The position numbers were made by a program, and so were the translations under genes. A model generated the notes under the pieces. That model saw only the letters and a list, made by a program, of their open reading frames with translations. It did not search any database and had not been told where the DNA came from. Positions 1 through 36,408 of a stretch of DNA of 64,000 bases are shown piece by piece. The DNA is taken from assembly GCA_003168375.1 (NCBI GenBank), contig PMSI01000001.1, forward strand, positions 1,488,001 through 1,552,000, written 5' to 3'. Positions within the stretch are counted from its first letter, which is position 1; each line of letters starts with the position of its first letter. The stretch is from Vulcanimicrobiota bacterium. Its GTDB lineage: Bacteria > Vulcanimicrobiota > Vulcanimicrobiia > Vulcanimicrobiales > Vulcanimicrobiaceae.

Positions 1-260
1 TCGCGCAACTCCCAGTTGCGCTGCTTCTTCCGCGCCTCTTTGTCTTTTTTCGACTGCTCGTACTTGAGCCGCCCGTAATCGCCGATGCGGCAGACCGGAG
101 GGATCGCCGTCGGGGAGACCTCGATGAGGTCGAGCCCCTTGGTCCGGGCCATGTTGAGGGCTTCCTCGGTCGTTATGACGCCCAGCTGTTGGCCTGCGTC
201 GTCGATGACGCGGACTTGGCGGATTCTGATCTGCTCGTTGACGCGAAGCGGTCTTGCTAT
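1..260 (-). CDS. infC: Translation initiation factor IF-3, N-terminal part (cut by window edge)
   Basis: IF-3 binds the 30S subunit, keeps it apart from 50S and rejects non-AUG start codons. The minus-strand frame reads [19 protein letters not shown], then [13 protein letters not shown] and DLIEVSP, then [20 protein letters not shown]. This is the canonical IF-3 N-domain and the start of the linker helix; the C-domain lies outside the window. No ATG, GTG or TTG sits at the conserved start. The codon before ARPLR is ATA (258-260), preceded by GGAGAG at a 7-base gap, so AUA is the likely start. Rare AUU or AUA starts are a known device for IF-3 to repress its own synthesis. rpmI and rplT would usually follow, beyond the edge. 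Identity is near certain; the start codon is inferred. Confidence 0.93.
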
Positions 261-572: not shown

Positions 573-1274
573 GTGCGCGTGAAAAGGATCGCCGCGATCG
601 TGACCCTTGCGGCATCGATCGCTTGGTGCGTGCTTCCGGCGGAATCCGCGCACCAAGCCGTCGTCCGGGTAGACGGCCTGGGTTTTCCCGTCTTTCCACA
701 TGCCACCAGCTATGCGGTCTTCGGAATGGGAATTGCGTACGTCGCCGTCGGCGACATCGAGCAGATCGTCGGCTGGTACCGCGAGCACAGCGGCCGGGAA
801 TGGGCAGCGGCTCCGATTCAAGCGAGCGGAAAAGAGCGAGCGGCGGAACTCAGCTTCGACGACGCGACCGGGACGCATCGCATGCGGATAATACAGCCGG
901 CCGGTAAGAACGCGCTGATTCAAGAGAACCTCGAACTCTCGTCCGCGGCATCGGAGAAGGCCCAGGAAGGCGGCCGCGCTTTGCGCGGACCGGCAGACCC
1001 GCTCGGCGTGACGCTGTATCCCCGCCGCCTAAAGGGTCAGTCCGTCGCGCTCGTCGACGGCGGGCGCGGTTTCGTCTCGTACGCCACCTCGGACGGTTTC
1101 CAAGCCGTCCGCACGTGGTTCAACGCTCGGCTGCCCAATCGTTTTGCCGCTTCGTACCACGTCAGCGCGGAGGCCGGCTCCATGCAGACCTTCCACGGCG
1201 GTGACACGACGGTCACGATCGCGCGAAGACTTCGCGACGGCATGACGATTGTGGGGGTCGAGACCGCGAAGTAG
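573..1274 (+). CDS. Secreted protein of unknown function
   Basis: The frame is open from an ATG at 420, but residues before 573 are unstructured. From GTG 573 (or GTG 579) the product begins VRVKRIAAIVTLAASIAW and runs to an AES-A cleavage-like site, a typical signal peptide of about 28 residues, so I choose 573 (233 aa). The mature part has two stretches of similar style: one around IEQIVGWYREHSGREW, and one later around GFQAVRTWFNARLP. This hints at a duplicated alpha/beta module read from a periplasmic protein. I do not recognise the family. It is transcribed away from infC and ends 17 bp before the convergent tricorn gene. Confidence 0.6.
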   Translation: MRVKRIAAIVTLAASIAWCVLPAESAHQAVVRVDGLGFPVFPHATSYAVFGMGIAYVAVGDIEQIVGWYREHSGREWAAAPIQASGKERAAELSFDDATGTHRMRIIQPAGKNALIQENLELSSAASEKAQEGGRALRGPADPLGVTLYPRRLKGQSVALVDGGRGFVSYATSDGFQAVRTWFNARLPNRFAASYHVSAEAGSMQTFHGGDTTVTIARRLRDGMTIVGVETAK

Positions 1275-1291
1275 ACCCCGGCTCGGGCGTT

Positions 1292-4200
1292 TTAGCGTCG
1301 ATTGGCTCGATTCGGTTTCTGCGGAAACTCCGGGCGGGCGGGTGCGCTCGCGAGCGCTTCGTCGACGAGGCGCAGTGCTTCGGCGAGCTGCGGGTCGTCG
1401 CCGCGCAGCGTGTCCTGCGGCGCGACGTCGACTTCATGCGTCGGATCGGTGCCGTAGTTCTCGACGCCCCAGCCCGCGTCGGTGAACCAGAACGAGAACT
1501 CCGGCTGGGTGGTCTCGGTGCCGTCGACCAGCCGGTGGCGCGGGTTGATTCCGATGACGCCGCCCCACGTGCGCATCCCGACCAGCGGCCCGAGTCCGTA
1601 CAACTTGAAGCAATGGCTGAAGATGTCGCCGTCGCTCCCTGCGAATTGGTTCGTCACGGCCACGATCGGCCCGGGGACGGACTCTTCGGGGTACGGGAAC
1701 GGCGGCGTCCAGCGCGAGACGTCGTAGCCGACGCGCTTGCGGGCCAGCTTCTCGAGTAACAGCGCGGAGACGTGTCCGCCGCGGTTGTAGCGGACGTCGA
1801 CGATCAGCGCGTCGCGGTCGAACTCGGTCAGATAGCCGCGGTGGAACTCGGCGAACCCCCACGGTCCCATGTCGGGGATGTGGACGTAGCCGACGCGGCC
1901 GCCGGTGCGGTCGTGCACCAGCGAGCGGTTCGCCTCCACCCATGCGCGGTAGCGCAGCATGCGTTCGTCGCGCAGCGTGCGTACCAGCACGCGGCGCGGC
2001 GTGCTGCCGGCGCCCCGCACGACGGAGAGCACGATGTCGCGCCCGGCCTGGTTCACGAGCAGTGCGCCCGGCCCGGACTCGGCGGTTACCGCGTGTCCGC
2101 CGATCCCGACGATGAGATCGCCTTCCTTCACGTCGACGCCGGGCTCCGCAAGCGGCGAGTCGGCGTCGCGGTTCCACGGGTCTCCGCGCAAAATGCGCTG
2201 GACACGATACGCACGCAACGCGTCGTCCCAAACGACGTCCGCGCCAAGGAAGCCGCGCTTGTACTGCGGAGGGATCGGCTTGTCGCCGCCGGTCTCGTAC
2301 GCATGCGAGGTGCCGAGCTCGCCCTGCATCTCCCAGATCACGTCGGAGAGCTCGTTGCGCGTGCGTACCTTCGGAAGCAGTGCTTCGTAGCGCGGCAAGA
2401 CGGCGTTCCAGTCGATCCCCGACATCTGGGGGTCCCAGAAGTTCTCGCGCTGCAGGCGCCAGGCTTCGCGCACCATCTGCAGCCACTCAGCACGCGGTTC
2501 GACCAGCACGCTGATTCGGCCGAGGTCGAGCCAGCCGGTGCGCCGTCCGATCTCTTGCCCCGGCTTGTCGTCGGCATCGTCTTCCGGAAGATCGGCGCCC
2601 GCGTCGATCGCGCGCAGCTTGCCGTGCGAAAGGTAGACCAGCGTGCGCGCGTCCGGTCCGAGCACGAAGTCGTCGACCTCGGTCGCGAGCGTCGCACTGC
2701 GCTGCTGTTCGAAATCATACGCGAAGAGCTCGCCTTCGGATTCTTCGTGATCGCGGTCGCTCGGCCGGATCCCGCGCACCGGAAAGCGCGTGAAGACGGC
2801 GCGCCCCTTCGCCGCCGCGATGCGGTCGTACGCACCCTCGTCGACCGGGAACGCCAGCATGCGGAGCGGCATACCCTCCGCCTCGACGACGACCGGCGGC
2901 TTGATGTCGCGCTTGTCGTCCGCCTCGTCGTCGTCGTCGTGACCGTGTTTGTGCAGCGGCGCGGGCTTGGCGACGAACGGGTTCGCGAGCGTCTCGCGCA
3001 AGGTCACCAGATACGGGCGCCACGCCTCGGGGAAGCTGAGCTCGAACTGCAGCGCGTCGTACACCGGATGAAAGTCGCGCGTCGAGAGGAAGTAGAGGTA
3101 GTTGCCCTCCGGATCCCAGGCCGGCGAACGGTCCTCGCGCAGCGCGCTCGTCGCGTCGATGACGCGGCCGCTCTCGCACTCGGCGATGCGCACGATCGTC
3201 GTATGCGCCTTCGGCGACCACACGTACGCGAGCCAGCGCCCGTCCGGCGAAAACGTAAGGTCGTCGATGCGTTCGCCGACGCTCAGATCGAGCAGCCGCG
3301 GCTCGCTTCCGAGGTCGAGCAGCCACAGCTCGTGGCGGTTGTTCGCGAACGCGAGCCGGTCGCCGGCCGGTGAGGCGACGAGCTGATGCAGCACGCCCAT
3401 ATCGTGATCCATGACGAACCGCGGCGGCGCGCTCTGATCGACCGGTGCGATCGCAATCCGCTCGAACCCCCCGCCGTCGTCGACGTACGCGACGCGCTTG
3501 TCGTCGTGCAGCCAGGTCAGCAGCCGGCGGCGCGCCGCGTGCTCGGGCTCCGGTGCGCGTCCGGATGCCGGATGCTCGGTGACGGCTTCTTCCCACAGCG
3601 GCATCGTATAGACGCGCCCGCGCGTGACGATCCCGAGCGCCGTGCCGTCGTGCGAGGGCGTCCAGGTCTCGAGCAGCTCCGCGGCGTCGACGAAGCGGCG
3701 CGCGGTCTCCCACGCGTTCGAGGGCATCTCCACCGGGACGCGCGACACGCTCCCGTCGCGCGGGTCGAGCAGCACGAGATCACCGCCGCAGGCGTAGACG
3801 ACGCGCGTGCCGTCGGTCGCGGGGAAGCGCACGTAGTGCTCCCGCTCGTCGGTCAGGCGGCGCAGATCGCTCCCGTCCGGCGCGACCGAATACAGGTTGC
3901 CGATCCCGTCGTGATCCGACAGGAACATCACGCGCTCGCCGAGCCACATCGGCCACACGAGGTTCCCGTCGAGCGCGCGGCAGATGCGCAGGTACTCACC
4001 GTCGCCGCGCGCGTCGACCCACAGGTGGCCCGCCGTACCGCCGCGGTACCGCTTCCAGCGCGCCGGGTCGATCGCGTTGCGCCCGAGCAGCGTCGCTCCG
4101 TTCGCCGTGACGTCGATCGTCATGGCATGGCCGACGTCCAGCGCGACGGGTTCACCACCGAACGCGTCGACCCGGAACGGAATCGTCTCCTTGACGAACG

Positions 4201-4531
4201 GCGAGCCCGCGTCGGAGGTGAAGTAGATGAAGCGCCCGTCGCGCGACCAGCCGCAGCAGTTGAGCGACTCGCTGCCCAAGTACGTCAGCCGGCGCGGCAC
4301 GCCGCCGCCGGTCGGCATCACGTAGAGCTCGGGATTGCCTTCTTCGCGACCGACGAATGCAAGGCGTGCGCCGTCCGGTGAGAGGCGCGGCAGGGTGCAC
4401 TCGCCGTCGGTGGTGGTAAGCCGGCGCGCGATCCCGCCGCCCGTGTCGACGATCCACAGATCGTCTTCGCAGGCGAAGACGATCGCGTCGTTCGCGATCG
4501 TCGGGGTTCGTACGTAACCGGAGGGACTCAC
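1292..4531 (-). CDS. Tricorn protease homologue
   Basis: A large (1079 aa) self-compartmentalising serine protease that trims oligopeptides released by the proteasome or other ATP-dependent proteases. N-terminal beta-propeller repeats (PRLSPDGARLAFVGREEG and many similar) fill about residues 1-680. A helical bundle carries GTSHAYE, then comes a PDZ domain, then the C-terminal protease domain. From GTG 4531 the catalytic set falls at Ser742, His743, Ser966 (AGSDGD) and Glu1024 (VENYG). These nearly coincide with S745, H746, S965 and E1023 of the archaeal enzyme. The open frame extends upstream to 5581, but that part is the antisense of meaB and is not coding. A stretch rich in Asp, His and Lys (HGHDDDDEADDK, around residue 530) is an insertion. 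It is divergent from meaB, and no tricorn-interacting aminopeptidase is nearby. Confidence 0.95.
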   Translation of the reverse strand: MSPSGYVRTPTIANDAIVFACEDDLWIVDTGGGIARRLTTTDGECTLPRLSPDGARLAFVGREEGNPELYVMPTGGGVPRRLTYLGSESLNCCGWSRDGRFIYFTSDAGSPFVKETIPFRVDAFGGEPVALDVGHAMTIDVTANGATLLGRNAIDPARWKRYRGGTAGHLWVDARGDGEYLRICRALDGNLVWPMWLGERVMFLSDHDGIGNLYSVAPDGSDLRRLTDEREHYVRFPATDGTRVVYACGGDLVLLDPRDGSVSRVPVEMPSNAWETARRFVDAAELLETWTPSHDGTALGIVTRGRVYTMPLWEEAVTEHPASGRAPEPEHAARRRLLTWLHDDKRVAYVDDGGGFERIAIAPVDQSAPPRFVMDHDMGVLHQLVASPAGDRLAFANNRHELWLLDLGSEPRLLDLSVGERIDDLTFSPDGRWLAYVWSPKAHTTIVRIAECESGRVIDATSALREDRSPAWDPEGNYLYFLSTRDFHPVYDALQFELSFPEAWRPYLVTLRETLANPFVAKPAPLHKHGHDDDDEADDKRDIKPPVVVEAEGMPLRMLAFPVDEGAYDRIAAAKGRAVFTRFPVRGIRPSDRDHEESEGELFAYDFEQQRSATLATEVDDFVLGPDARTLVYLSHGKLRAIDAGADLPEDDADDKPGQEIGRRTGWLDLGRISVLVEPRAEWLQMVREAWRLQRENFWDPQMSGIDWNAVLPRYEALLPKVRTRNELSDVIWEMQGELGTSHAYETGGDKPIPPQYKRGFLGADVVWDDALRAYRVQRILRGDPWNRDADSPLAEPGVDVKEGDLIVGIGGHAVTAESGPGALLVNQAGRDIVLSVVRGAGSTPRRVLVRTLRDERMLRYRAWVEANRSLVHDRTGGRVGYVHIPDMGPWGFAEFHRGYLTEFDRDALIVDVRYNRGGHVSALLLEKLARKRVGYDVSRWTPPFPYPEESVPGPIVAVTNQFAGSDGDIFSHCFKLYGLGPLVGMRTWGGVIGINPRHRLVDGTETTQPEFSFWFTDAGWGVENYGTDPTHEVDVAPQDTLRGDDPQLAEALRLVDEALASAPARPEFPQKPNRANRR

Positions 4532-4594
4532 CCGCGACGGGTACGCGGGCGGGGTGAGGGAGTCCCGGGTACCCGCCGTGAACGCGGAGGCGCG

Positions 4595-5572
4595 ATGGAC
4601 GACCCAGCCGGGCTGCTGACGGCGTTTCGCGCCGGCGAACCGCGTGCGCTCGCACGCGCGATCTCGCGCTGCGAATCGGGCCGCGGCGCGGATCTGATCC
4701 GCGCGCTCTACCCGCTCACCGGGCGTGCGCTTACCGTCGGGCTCACCGGTCCCCCGGGCGTCGGCAAGTCGACGCTCAGCGGCGCGCTGATCGCCCACGT
4801 TCGTGCCCAAGGCAAGACGGTCGGCGTCATCTCGGTCGATCCGAGCTCGCCGTTCTCGCACGGCGCGTTGCTCGGCGACCGGATCCGGCTCCTCGAGCAT
4901 TTCACCGACCCCGACGTCTTCATCCGTTCGATGGCTTCGCGCGGACATCTGGGCGGCCTCTCGGGAGCGACCGCCGATGCGGTCTCGCTGATGGACGCGT
5001 TCGGGAAGGACGTCGTGCTGATCGAGACGGTCGGCGTCGGTCAGTCGGAGATCGAGATTGCCGAGGTTGCCGACACGACGCTGGTCGCATTGCAGCCCGG
5101 CAGCGGCGACTCCGTGCAAGTCCTCAAAGCCGGCGTGCTCGAGATCGCCGACGTGTTCGTGGTGAACAAGAGCGATCACCCGATGGCGCTGCAGCTGCAG
5201 CGCGAGATCCGCTCGATGATGGAGATGCTGAACTACGACGGCTGGGTCCCGGCGCTGGTCAGCACGCAGGCGGTCGAAGGCAAGGGCGTCGACAAGCTCT
5301 GGGACGCGATCGTCGCTCACGACGCGTGGCTCCGCGAGACCGGCGCGCTGCACGCGAAACGCCGGTCGGCGTTCGCGCACCGCGTGCGACAGCTCGCGCT
5401 CGGTACGCTCGAAGGGCGTATCGAAGACGCGATCGCGCAGCTCGGCGACGACCTCGATCCGTATGCTGCCGCCGAGATCGTGCTGGCCGAGTACGGCGTG
5501 CGTGGCGGAGTCAGCGCGCTCGGCAACGTGCGCGCCCACGGCGACGTCCGCGCCCATGTGAAGGGGCTGTAG
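4595..5572 (+). CDS. meaB: MeaB/ArgK-type G-protein chaperone of methylmalonyl-CoA mutase
   Basis: P-loop GTPase (325 aa) that gates cobalamin loading and protects B12-dependent acyl-CoA mutases from inactivation. Visible motifs are the Walker A GPPGVGKST (about residues 53-61), VDPSSPF, the switch ETVGVGQSE and the G4 motif NKSD, followed by the C-terminal dimerisation helices. Length is typical. Starts at ATG 4595, 63 bp from the divergent tricorn start. Its partner mutase subunits lie at 9073-11213, separated by the 5.6-8.4 kb segment that may be a later insertion. Confidence 0.95.
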   Translation: MDDPAGLLTAFRAGEPRALARAISRCESGRGADLIRALYPLTGRALTVGLTGPPGVGKSTLSGALIAHVRAQGKTVGVISVDPSSPFSHGALLGDRIRLLEHFTDPDVFIRSMASRGHLGGLSGATADAVSLMDAFGKDVVLIETVGVGQSEIEIAEVADTTLVALQPGSGDSVQVLKAGVLEIADVFVVNKSDHPMALQLQREIRSMMEMLNYDGWVPALVSTQAVEGKGVDKLWDAIVAHDAWLRETGALHAKRRSAFAHRVRQLALGTLEGRIEDAIAQLGDDLDPYAAAEIVLAEYGVRGGVSALGNVRAHGDVRAHVKGL

Positions 5573-34006: not shown

Positions 34007-34570
34007 TCAGACTTTAGCGTTCAGGAAGTTCATGGCCGCGGTCACACCTTGGGTCAACCAGGTCTCGACGCCTGCCACTGCGCGGTCCACGATCGCGCGA
34101 AATTCCATACGTTCGGTTTCTGTGAAGTCGCCGAGAACGCGCTCGACCGCGTCGGGGTCGTGACCGCGACCGATCCCGATGCGAAGGCGCGGAAAGTCTT
34201 GTCCAAATACTTCAATTAGGGACTTTAGCCCGTTGTGCCCGCCGCTCGAACCGTTCGCGCGCAAACGCAGCGTGCCGAACGGCAGATCGAGATCGTCGAC
34301 GATCACGAGCATGCGCTGGGGTGGTATCTTGTAGAACGTCGCGATGCTCTGCACGGGACGCCCGCTCAGGTTCATGTACGCCTGCGGCTTGACGAGGATC
34401 GCGCCGCGCGAACGATCGATCGCGTAGCGCGCATCGGCTTTCTTCTGCCAGTCGCGGACGCCCCAACGCTCGGCTTGCGTGTCGACCACGATGAAGCCGG
34501 CGTTGTGGCGTGTGCTGGCGTACTTCGAGCCCGGATTGCCGAGCCCGACGATGAGGGAGAGCTCGCCGAT
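34007..34570 (-). CDS. pth: Peptidyl-tRNA hydrolase with no canonical start codon
   Basis: Releases tRNA from stalled peptidyl-tRNA. All active-site motifs are present: LIVGLGNPGSKYASTRHNAG (catalytic His and Asn), KPQAYMNLSG, VIVDDLDLPFGTLR and GSSGGHNGLKSLI. Frame is open back to the TAG of rplY (34577-34579), and the seven-codon gap before the conserved core has no ATG, GTG or TTG. ATC 34570 gives a normal 187 aa protein. The first canonical start, GTG 34489, would remove the catalytic His. So initiation is at AUC (or another non-AUG codon), or UAG is read through, or a base is wrong. Confidence 0.9.
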   Translation of the reverse strand: MGELSLIVGLGNPGSKYASTRHNAGFIVVDTQAERWGVRDWQKKADARYAIDRSRGAILVKPQAYMNLSGRPVQSIATFYKIPPQRMLVIVDDLDLPFGTLRLRANGSSGGHNGLKSLIEVFGQDFPRLRIGIGRGHDPDAVERVLGDFTETERMEFRAIVDRAVAGVETWLTQGVTAAMNFLNAKV

Positions 34571-34576
34571 CGCCGG

Positions 34577-35212
34577 CTAGGCCTCTGGCGGCGGTGCTTC
34601 GGCCGGCTGTTCCTCGACGGTCGCCGGCGTTTCCGTTTCAGCCGCACCGGCGCGCGTGATCGAGACGGAGACGACGATCGTATCGGGGGGCGTGAGAAGC
34701 GTGAATCCGGCAGGGAGAGCGATCTCGCCCGCGCTCACGTGCTGGTGCACGGCGAGTTCGTTCACGTCGACCGTGATCGAATCGGGGATCGATTGCGCCG
34801 GTCCCTTGATTTCGAGCGCGCGCGTGACGACGTCCATGACGCCTTCCTGTTCGCGCACGCCGATCGGGTTGCCGACGGTGACGACGTTCACCGATGCGGT
34901 GATCGCTTCGTCTTTGGTGACGCGCTGAAAGTCGACGCTGAGCGGTTTGCGCGTGAGCGGGTGCGCCTCGATACGGCGCAGCAGCACGGAATCTTTCTTC
35001 CCGCCGATCGATGCCTCCATGATGTGGCTGCGGTGACCGGACAAGATGAGGTCGGTGAGCTGCTTCACGTCGATCGCGATCGGTGTGGCCTGACCGTGGC
35101 CGTAGACGACGCCCGGGATCTTGCCGGCGCGGCGCAGAGCGTGCGAAGCGGTGGTTCCGATGCCGGTGCGCGGCTCGAGGACGAGGTTCGTGAGGGTGTG
35201 CGGTTTCGACAT
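34577..35212 (-). CDS. rplY: Ribosomal protein L25 (TL5/CTC form)
   Basis: 211 aa, the long CTC-type L25 that binds 5S rRNA. The N-terminal domain has LVLEPRTGIGTTASHALRRAGKIPGVVYGHG and LLRRIEAHPLTRKPLSVDF; the C-terminal beta domain ends in a low-complexity Glu/Pro/Ala tail. Gene order prs-rplY-pth is conserved in many bacteria. Its TAG stop is in the same frame as pth, which follows with no canonical start. Confidence 0.95.
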   Translation of the reverse strand: MSKPHTLTNLVLEPRTGIGTTASHALRRAGKIPGVVYGHGQATPIAIDVKQLTDLILSGHRSHIMEASIGGKKDSVLLRRIEAHPLTRKPLSVDFQRVTKDEAITASVNVVTVGNPIGVREQEGVMDVVTRALEIKGPAQSIPDSITVDVNELAVHQHVSAGEIALPAGFTLLTPPDTIVVSVSITRAGAAETETPATVEEQPAEAPPPEA

Positions 35213-35227
35213 GGTTTCCTGACGTTG

Positions 35228-36259
35228 TTAAACGGCTGCGGCGACGGGAAGCTCGGGCTCGATTTGCGCGGGTGGGGGTTTTTCGGGCGGCGGCTCCGTA
35301 TCGTCGGCGTTGAACAGTTCGGAGACGGAGCGGTTCGAGGTGATGCGCTTGATCGCGTCGGCGAGGATCTGCGCGATCGTGAGGTGCTCGACTTTCGCCG
35401 AGTCGATCGTGCGCGGGATCGTGTTGGTCACGATTACCCGGTTGATCTCGGACTTCTCGAACTGCGCGATCGCGTCCCCGGCAAAGATGCCGTGCGTTGC
35501 AAGCGTGTAGACGTCGGTCGCGCCGCGCTTGCGGAGCGCCTCGGCCGCTTTCACCAAGGTACCGCCCGTCGAAATCATGTCGTCGACCACCACCGCGACC
35601 TTCCCCTCGACGTCACCGACGATGTGCGTCACCTCGGAGACGTCCGGCTCGGGCCGGCGCTTGATGATCACGGCGAGGTTCGACTTCAGGCGCTTGGCGA
35701 AGAGCTCCGCCCGCGGCACGCCGCCGGCGTCGGGCGAGACGACGACGATCTTGTCGCCCTGCAAGTCGAGGTTCTTGAGGTGGTTGCAGAGGGTCGGCGC
35801 CGCCATCAGGTTGTCGACCGGGACGTCGAAGAAGCCCTGGATCTGCGCGGCGTGGAGGTCGAGGGTGACGATACGCTCCGCGCCCGCCATCTCGATCATG
35901 TTCGCGACCAGCTTGGCCGAGATCGGCTCGCGGCCTTTCGTCTTCTTGTCCTGCTTCGCGTAGCCGTAGTACGGAATCACCGCGGTGATGCGGTTGGCCG
36001 AGGCGCGGCGCAGCGCGTCGATGATCAGGAGCAGCTCCATGACCGAATCGTTGACGGTCGCGCCCTGAGGGGACCGGCACAGCGACTGGACGACGAAGAC
36101 CTCGGCGCCGCGCACGTTCTCGCGGATCTCGATCCGGCACTCGTCGTTCTTGAAACGGTCGACCAGCGCGTTCCCTACGCGCGTCTGCATCCGTTTGGCG
36201 ATCTCGTCCGCCAACTGGCGGTTGGAGGTCCCGCTGAACAGCAGGGGCGGCTGGATCAC
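35228..36259 (-). CDS. prs: Ribose-phosphate pyrophosphokinase
   Basis: 343 aa class I enzyme making PRPP from ribose 5-phosphate and ATP. It has NECRIEIRENVRGAEVFVVQS-like ligand stretches, DLHAAQIQGFFDVPVDNL, and the PRPP loop VVVDDMISTGGT. The last 25 residues are a Pro/Glu-rich tail outside the usual fold. I choose GTG 36259 (VIQPPLLFSGTSN) because AGAAGGAG lies nine bases upstream; the frame is open to 36328 but those codons contain no family sequence. Confidence 0.95.
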   Translation of the reverse strand: MIQPPLLFSGTSNRQLADEIAKRMQTRVGNALVDRFKNDECRIEIRENVRGAEVFVVQSLCRSPQGATVNDSVMELLLIIDALRRASANRITAVIPYYGYAKQDKKTKGREPISAKLVANMIEMAGAERIVTLDLHAAQIQGFFDVPVDNLMAAPTLCNHLKNLDLQGDKIVVVSPDAGGVPRAELFAKRLKSNLAVIIKRRPEPDVSEVTHIVGDVEGKVAVVVDDMISTGGTLVKAAEALRKRGATDVYTLATHGIFAGDAIAQFEKSEINRVIVTNTIPRTIDSAKVEHLTIAQILADAIKRITSNRSVSELFNADDTEPPPEKPPPAQIEPELPVAAAV

Positions 36260-36408
36260 GGCGGCTGGCTCCTTCTGCCTCCGGACGGCGCCAGAGCGCC
36301 AGGGGGAAGCGGGGCTAACCTGCGTCACCGGACGCTCAGTGTCCTGGGTTGGTAAAGGTCGCGGGCCTCAACCCGGCCATCGTTGCCCGTGTCTAAGGAG
36401 GAGCTTCC

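Follow-up and report, generated by a model that had tools for sequence, protein, structure and literature searches.

How is translation of pth started at a locus where this gene has no canonical start codon? The question is raised by a stretch of 64,000 nucleotides from a Vulcanimicrobiota bacterium, which we refer to as the window, in which prs, rplY, and pth are consecutive genes on the minus strand. The features on which the discussion depends are listed below in window coordinates.

35228..36328, minus strand: prs, gene upstream of rplY
34577..35212, minus strand: rplY, ribosomal protein bL25 (Ctc type), with an ATG start and a TAG stop; coding part 35212-34580
34582..34586, minus strand: AGAGG, a possible weak Shine-Dalgarno sequence within rplY, 11 nt upstream of AUC; some congeners are without it
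34577..34579, minus strand: TAG stop of rplY, the proposed site of termination preceding reinitiation on pth
34568..34570, minus strand: AUC, proposed start codon of pth, third codon past the rplY stop
34007..34570, minus strand: pth, peptidyl-tRNA hydrolase, from the proposed AUC
34529..34546, minus strand: GLGNPG, conserved Pth motif, used as the anchor for every junction
34507-34505, minus strand: His of the RHN motif (catalytic)
34487..34489, minus strand: GTG, first canonical start codon in the pth frame, past the catalytic His and not the start
258..260, minus strand: AUA start codon of infC (IF3), with GGAGAG upstream

The product of the window gene is a Pth, as it matches TIGR00447 with an E value of 1e-55 and 188 bits (curated cut-off 100) and presents both the GLGNPG and the RHN motifs, and pth is single-copy in the source genome. 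The initial annotation had placed this gene in the rplY frame across one UAG and without a canonical start, and this was confirmed when the codons were read again: pth is in phase with rplY, the TAG is followed by CCG GCG ATC GGC GAG CTC TCC CTC ATC GTC and then by GLGNPG, and there is no ATG, GTG, or TTG between the rplY stop and the Pth core at this junction. It was also right that the first GTG (34489) would delete the catalytic His, which lies upstream of it, and because of this position the GTG cannot be the pth start. Three ways out had been left there, namely initiation at AUC, read-through of the UAG, or an error in the assembly, and only the first of them stood, as discussed below. 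When the window Pth was aligned to 2z2i, the AUC-started protein, which would begin M-GELSLIV-GLGNPG, had the length of the Mycobacterium tuberculosis Pth, whose N-terminus is MAEPLLVV-GLGNPG; residue 5 of the latter protein paired with Ser 5 of the AUC-started one.

The survey comprised 104 rplY-pth junctions, representing 45 genera, of the class to which the source genome belongs (Eremiobacteria; Eremiobacterota/WPS-2); among these bacteria, Vulcanimicrobium is the genus in culture (PMC9758169). A canonical pth start (ATG, GTG, or TTG) was missing between the rplY stop and the core in 77 of them, 64 with near-cognate codons and 13 without any classical near-cognate, while the remaining junctions had ATG (14) or GTG or TTG (13); in 30 of the 45 genera no member had a canonical pth start. 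All 65 control pth genes from other phyla and all 16 rplY-pth junctions from other families of the phylum had a canonical start candidate; three outgroup pth genes (L102, L106, and L112), whose canonical starts are located further upstream, were counted as canonical. The rplY gene itself has a canonical start candidate in 104/104 class loci, and in a ribosomal-operon control (20 genes, 20 genomes, non-overlapping gene set) 343 of 348 starts were canonical, the five exceptions being one rplD-like and four rplO-like genes with variable N-termini that may start beyond the 20 codons scanned. The usual start signal is almost never found at the beginning of pth in this class, and the apparent lack of a canonical start is a property of pth, not a genome-wide one. 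In a congener of the source genome (L004) Pth begins with a tandem repeat of the VGLGNP motif, the first copy of which contains a GTG.

Which codons are found instead was examined with a start-like set composed of ATG, GTG, TTG, CTG, ATA, ATC, and ATT. Weighted by genus, 72% of the junctions present one of these codons between stop-1 and stop+11 in the pth frame; for the other two frames the shares are 11% and 8%. With pth in the -1 frame, the stop is overlapped by ATA in 30 junctions (16 genera, giving AUAG or AUAA), by GTA in 15, by CTG in 4, by GTG in 2, by ATG in 1, and by CTA or TTA in 5. The base preceding the rplY stop, which if it is A turns the overlapping codon into ATA, is A in 31/57 of the -1-frame junctions versus 5/43 in frame 0 (p 8e-6; per genus p 5e-4), and in phylogenetically independent pairs the direction was kept without reaching significance (median p 0.125). 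Among the frame-0 junctions, CTG occupies the first to third codon past the stop in many genera and ATC the third in the genus of the window, and the start-stop spacing is +3 to +9 in frame 0 and an overlap at stop-1 in the -1 frame.

Of the ten codons preceding the core, the AUC at 34568-34570 alone is identical in all of seven sequences that represent two genera (L001, L002, L003, L005, L007, L008, and L012), the flanking codons of which differ. AUC initiation is therefore the option of the initial annotation that is well supported as a probable start, as AUC is kept while its neighbours change and AUC, AUA, CUG, and GUA are present at equivalent places in the family; the conserved in-frame UAG that it had also proposed to look for among relatives was not found. 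In g43, ATGA and ATAA stand at the equivalent position in two species (L128 and L147), and in g25 (seven species) GUA is the sole candidate at the stop, with AAGGAG 7 nt ahead. A Shine-Dalgarno sequence inside the upstream gene is usual, but not universal, for termination-reinitiation pairs; here it is well placed in g25, g44, g50, g52, and others, its spacing selecting AUC or AUA in g50 and g52, while several g1 members have it only in a weak form or lack it. The 13 junctions without a classical near-cognate comprise those with GUA in g25, five g44 species with CCG, GUC, or only CUC/GUC, and L179. The start position has turned over repeatedly, with at least 20 frame changes and at least 22 class changes on the Pth tree. 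RNA structure at the junction was not above that of shuffled sequences (z 0.16). In-frame stops between rplY and the core are rare (3/1107 codons), which is weak evidence because one control frame is equally open.

Our reading, to which we assign a probability of about 0.75, is that pth would be translated from a near-cognate start (the AUC at 34568-34570 in this genome) by ribosomes coming directly from termination on rplY. It is built on the missing canonical start, the location of the start region at the rplY stop, the enrichment of near-cognates in the pth frame only, and the rarity of ATG there, and it makes initiation of pth at AUC likely in the window. The ribosome, or its 30S subunit, would stay on the mRNA past the rplY stop and reinitiate with fMet-tRNA at AUC, AUA, CUG, or GUA. 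IF3 discriminates against noncanonical start codons, and with these codons initiation would be inefficient, putatively leaving Pth far below L25; Pth would be needed in small amounts, and a decrease in IF3 should increase its level. The initiator tRNA of the source genome looks normal, with a CAU anticodon. The classic example of a non-AUG gene, infC, starts with AUA in 30 of 30 family members read, including the window (260-258, behind GGAGAG). Initiation at AUA is therefore likely to occur in these bacteria and, from what is established about IF3, so is its discrimination against such starts.

A fusion of L25 and Pth, made by read-through of the UAG (and by frameshifting in other species), would dispense with a pth start codon altogether, and it has in its favour that pth is in frame with rplY across a single TAG in the source genome and that the flexible L25 tail could serve as a linker. 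However, relative to rplY, pth is in frame 0 in 43 junctions, -1 in 57, and +1 in 4, with the many changes on the Pth tree given above, and the rplY stop varies between TAG, TGA, and TAA within the genus of the window, so that neither the in-frame arrangement nor the stop context is conserved. Furthermore, none of all the 68 tRNA genes found in the source genome has a UAG-reading (CUA) anticodon, although a suppressor tRNA is not required in every case, and neither ATA at the stop overlap nor the frame-specific enrichment is predicted by read-through. Because the frame shifts among species, the stop varies, and no suppressor tRNA was found, the fusion is not supported and we consider it very improbable; the common denominator of the junctions is a putative start near the stop, not a fusion. 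The loss of an ATG by an assembly or sequencing error, which could be suspected as many of the genomes are metagenome assemblies, has a negligible probability, since a separately deposited relative (L002/L043) with a 95% identical Pth has the identical junction, and 30 genera have no canonical pth start in any member. In the source genome 28 tRNA genes are gathered in ∼4 kb (L283, G000:C7:181500-187500, 997-4785); this array largely duplicates the ordinary set and resembles the tRNA arrays of phages or mobile elements.

Two further alternatives concern the position of the start. Restart could take place on whatever codon adjoins the rplY stop, with the start codon under little constraint, and the 13 junctions without a near-cognate codon, together with the CTG-CCG and ATA-GTA exchanges at the equivalent place among relatives, would fit with this. 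Nevertheless, start-like codons are six- to nine-fold enriched and only in the pth frame, the g1 group keeps AUC without exception, and the overlap with the stop favours A, from which it follows that codon identity matters in most lineages; we hold such a free choice of codon to be unlikely. The related proposal that post-termination ribosomes in Eremiobacteria start pth outside the near-cognate set (at GUA, GUC, or even CCG), with the position of the stop and not the start codon setting where, seems to us similarly doubtful. Alternatively, pth could start at the codons of the beta-strand that adjoin the core (CTC, ATC, or GTC at position -3), the upstream AUC or AUA being incidental, and indeed L009, L010, L011, L133, L145, and L164 have an ATG exactly at -3. 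Most junctions, however, keep an open frame with a start-like codon placed at the rplY stop, an enrichment specific to this frame, and the AUC-started protein matches the length of the M. tuberculosis Pth, making a start at -3 quite improbable.

If stop-coupled initiation at a weak codon is the correct reading, the codon could serve to set the level of Pth. Beside a ribosomal-protein gene that is translated heavily, an AUG would make too strong a start, and a weak codon would be retained, while a pth start distant from the rplY stop would need AUG. ATG is present in 4/83 junctions in which fewer than 45 nt separate stop and core versus 10/21 with a longer gap (p 9e-6), and per genus in 3/37 near versus 6/14 far (p 0.008); in seven phylogenetically independent pairs a mean of 3.1 were for the rule and 0 against, which is not significant (median p 0.25), and because these pairs are too few for significance we keep the rule as a hypothesis. 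That a weak codon near the stop may hold Pth low relative to L25 is likewise a hypothesis with some support, as both the distance pattern and L171 fit with it. L171 (G031:C39) represents one genus without rplY between prs and pth, in which pth directly follows prs and has an ATG start.

To our knowledge, few bacterial genes avoid AUG. The infC gene, which is autoregulated by IF3, starts with ATT in Escherichia coli and with ATC in Streptomyces (PMC5472188). It resembles pth in that a non-AUG start is kept over a wide clade, but infC uses one codon in one place, whereas pth has often switched its codon and its frame and lies on the rplY stop, and for pth an autoregulatory logic is not obvious. 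In sigR of Streptomyces a GTC start is repressed by IF3 and sets the ratio of two operon products, and its replacement by a canonical codon causes over-expression of sigR (PMC5472188). For noncanonical starts, rises of 3- to 15-fold in an IF3 fidelity mutant of E. coli are reported (PMC5472188). The GTC start of sigR is a direct precedent for a noncanonical start setting the ratio of operon products, as we propose from the sequence for pth, although sigR opens its operon and concerns a single genus, while pth is a downstream gene placed by an upstream stop across a class. Similarly to these IF3-type genes, pth has no compatible ATG, GTG, or TTG and its proposed noncanonical start is conserved (AUC in seven sequences, AUA in 16 genera). 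As for GUA, Haggerty and Lovett are said to have found in 1997 that a recJ GUA initiation mutant was suppressed through IF3, so that GUA would be able to act as an IF3-limited start, in that case as a laboratory mutation and not as a natural and conserved start.

Post-stop reinitiation is well documented too, usually at NUGA (PMC6728339, PMC12548453). As in the ATGA and TGATG pairs, stop and start overlap or are a few nt apart in rplY-pth, and the -4 nt overlap recurs; unlike in them, the overlap is mostly AUAG, AUAA, GUAG, GUAA, or CUGA instead of NUGA with a canonical start. The start type is already known, and what would be new is the use of near-cognate IF3-type starts on a stop-coupled essential gene across a class. 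Pth, an enzyme that recycles tRNA, is essential and single-copy and, if our reading is true, a class-wide avoidance of AUG at a stop-start junction would add one more member to the IF3-sensitive genes, and the repeated codon turnover at the junction would suggest that weak start codons tune reinitiation. In practical terms, gene finders restricted to ATG, GTG, and TTG would truncate Pth in these genomes; in the window, 27 residues would be lost, the catalytic His among them.

Finally, the tail of L25 (window 34580-34660, minus strand) contains many Glu and Pro residues: AETETPATVEEQPAEAPPPEA. According to PMC9718836, translating ribosomes are destabilised by runs of acidic residues. One may speculate that the acidic L25 tail would yield peptidyl-tRNA, the substrate of Pth, and in this way be connected to the control of pth.
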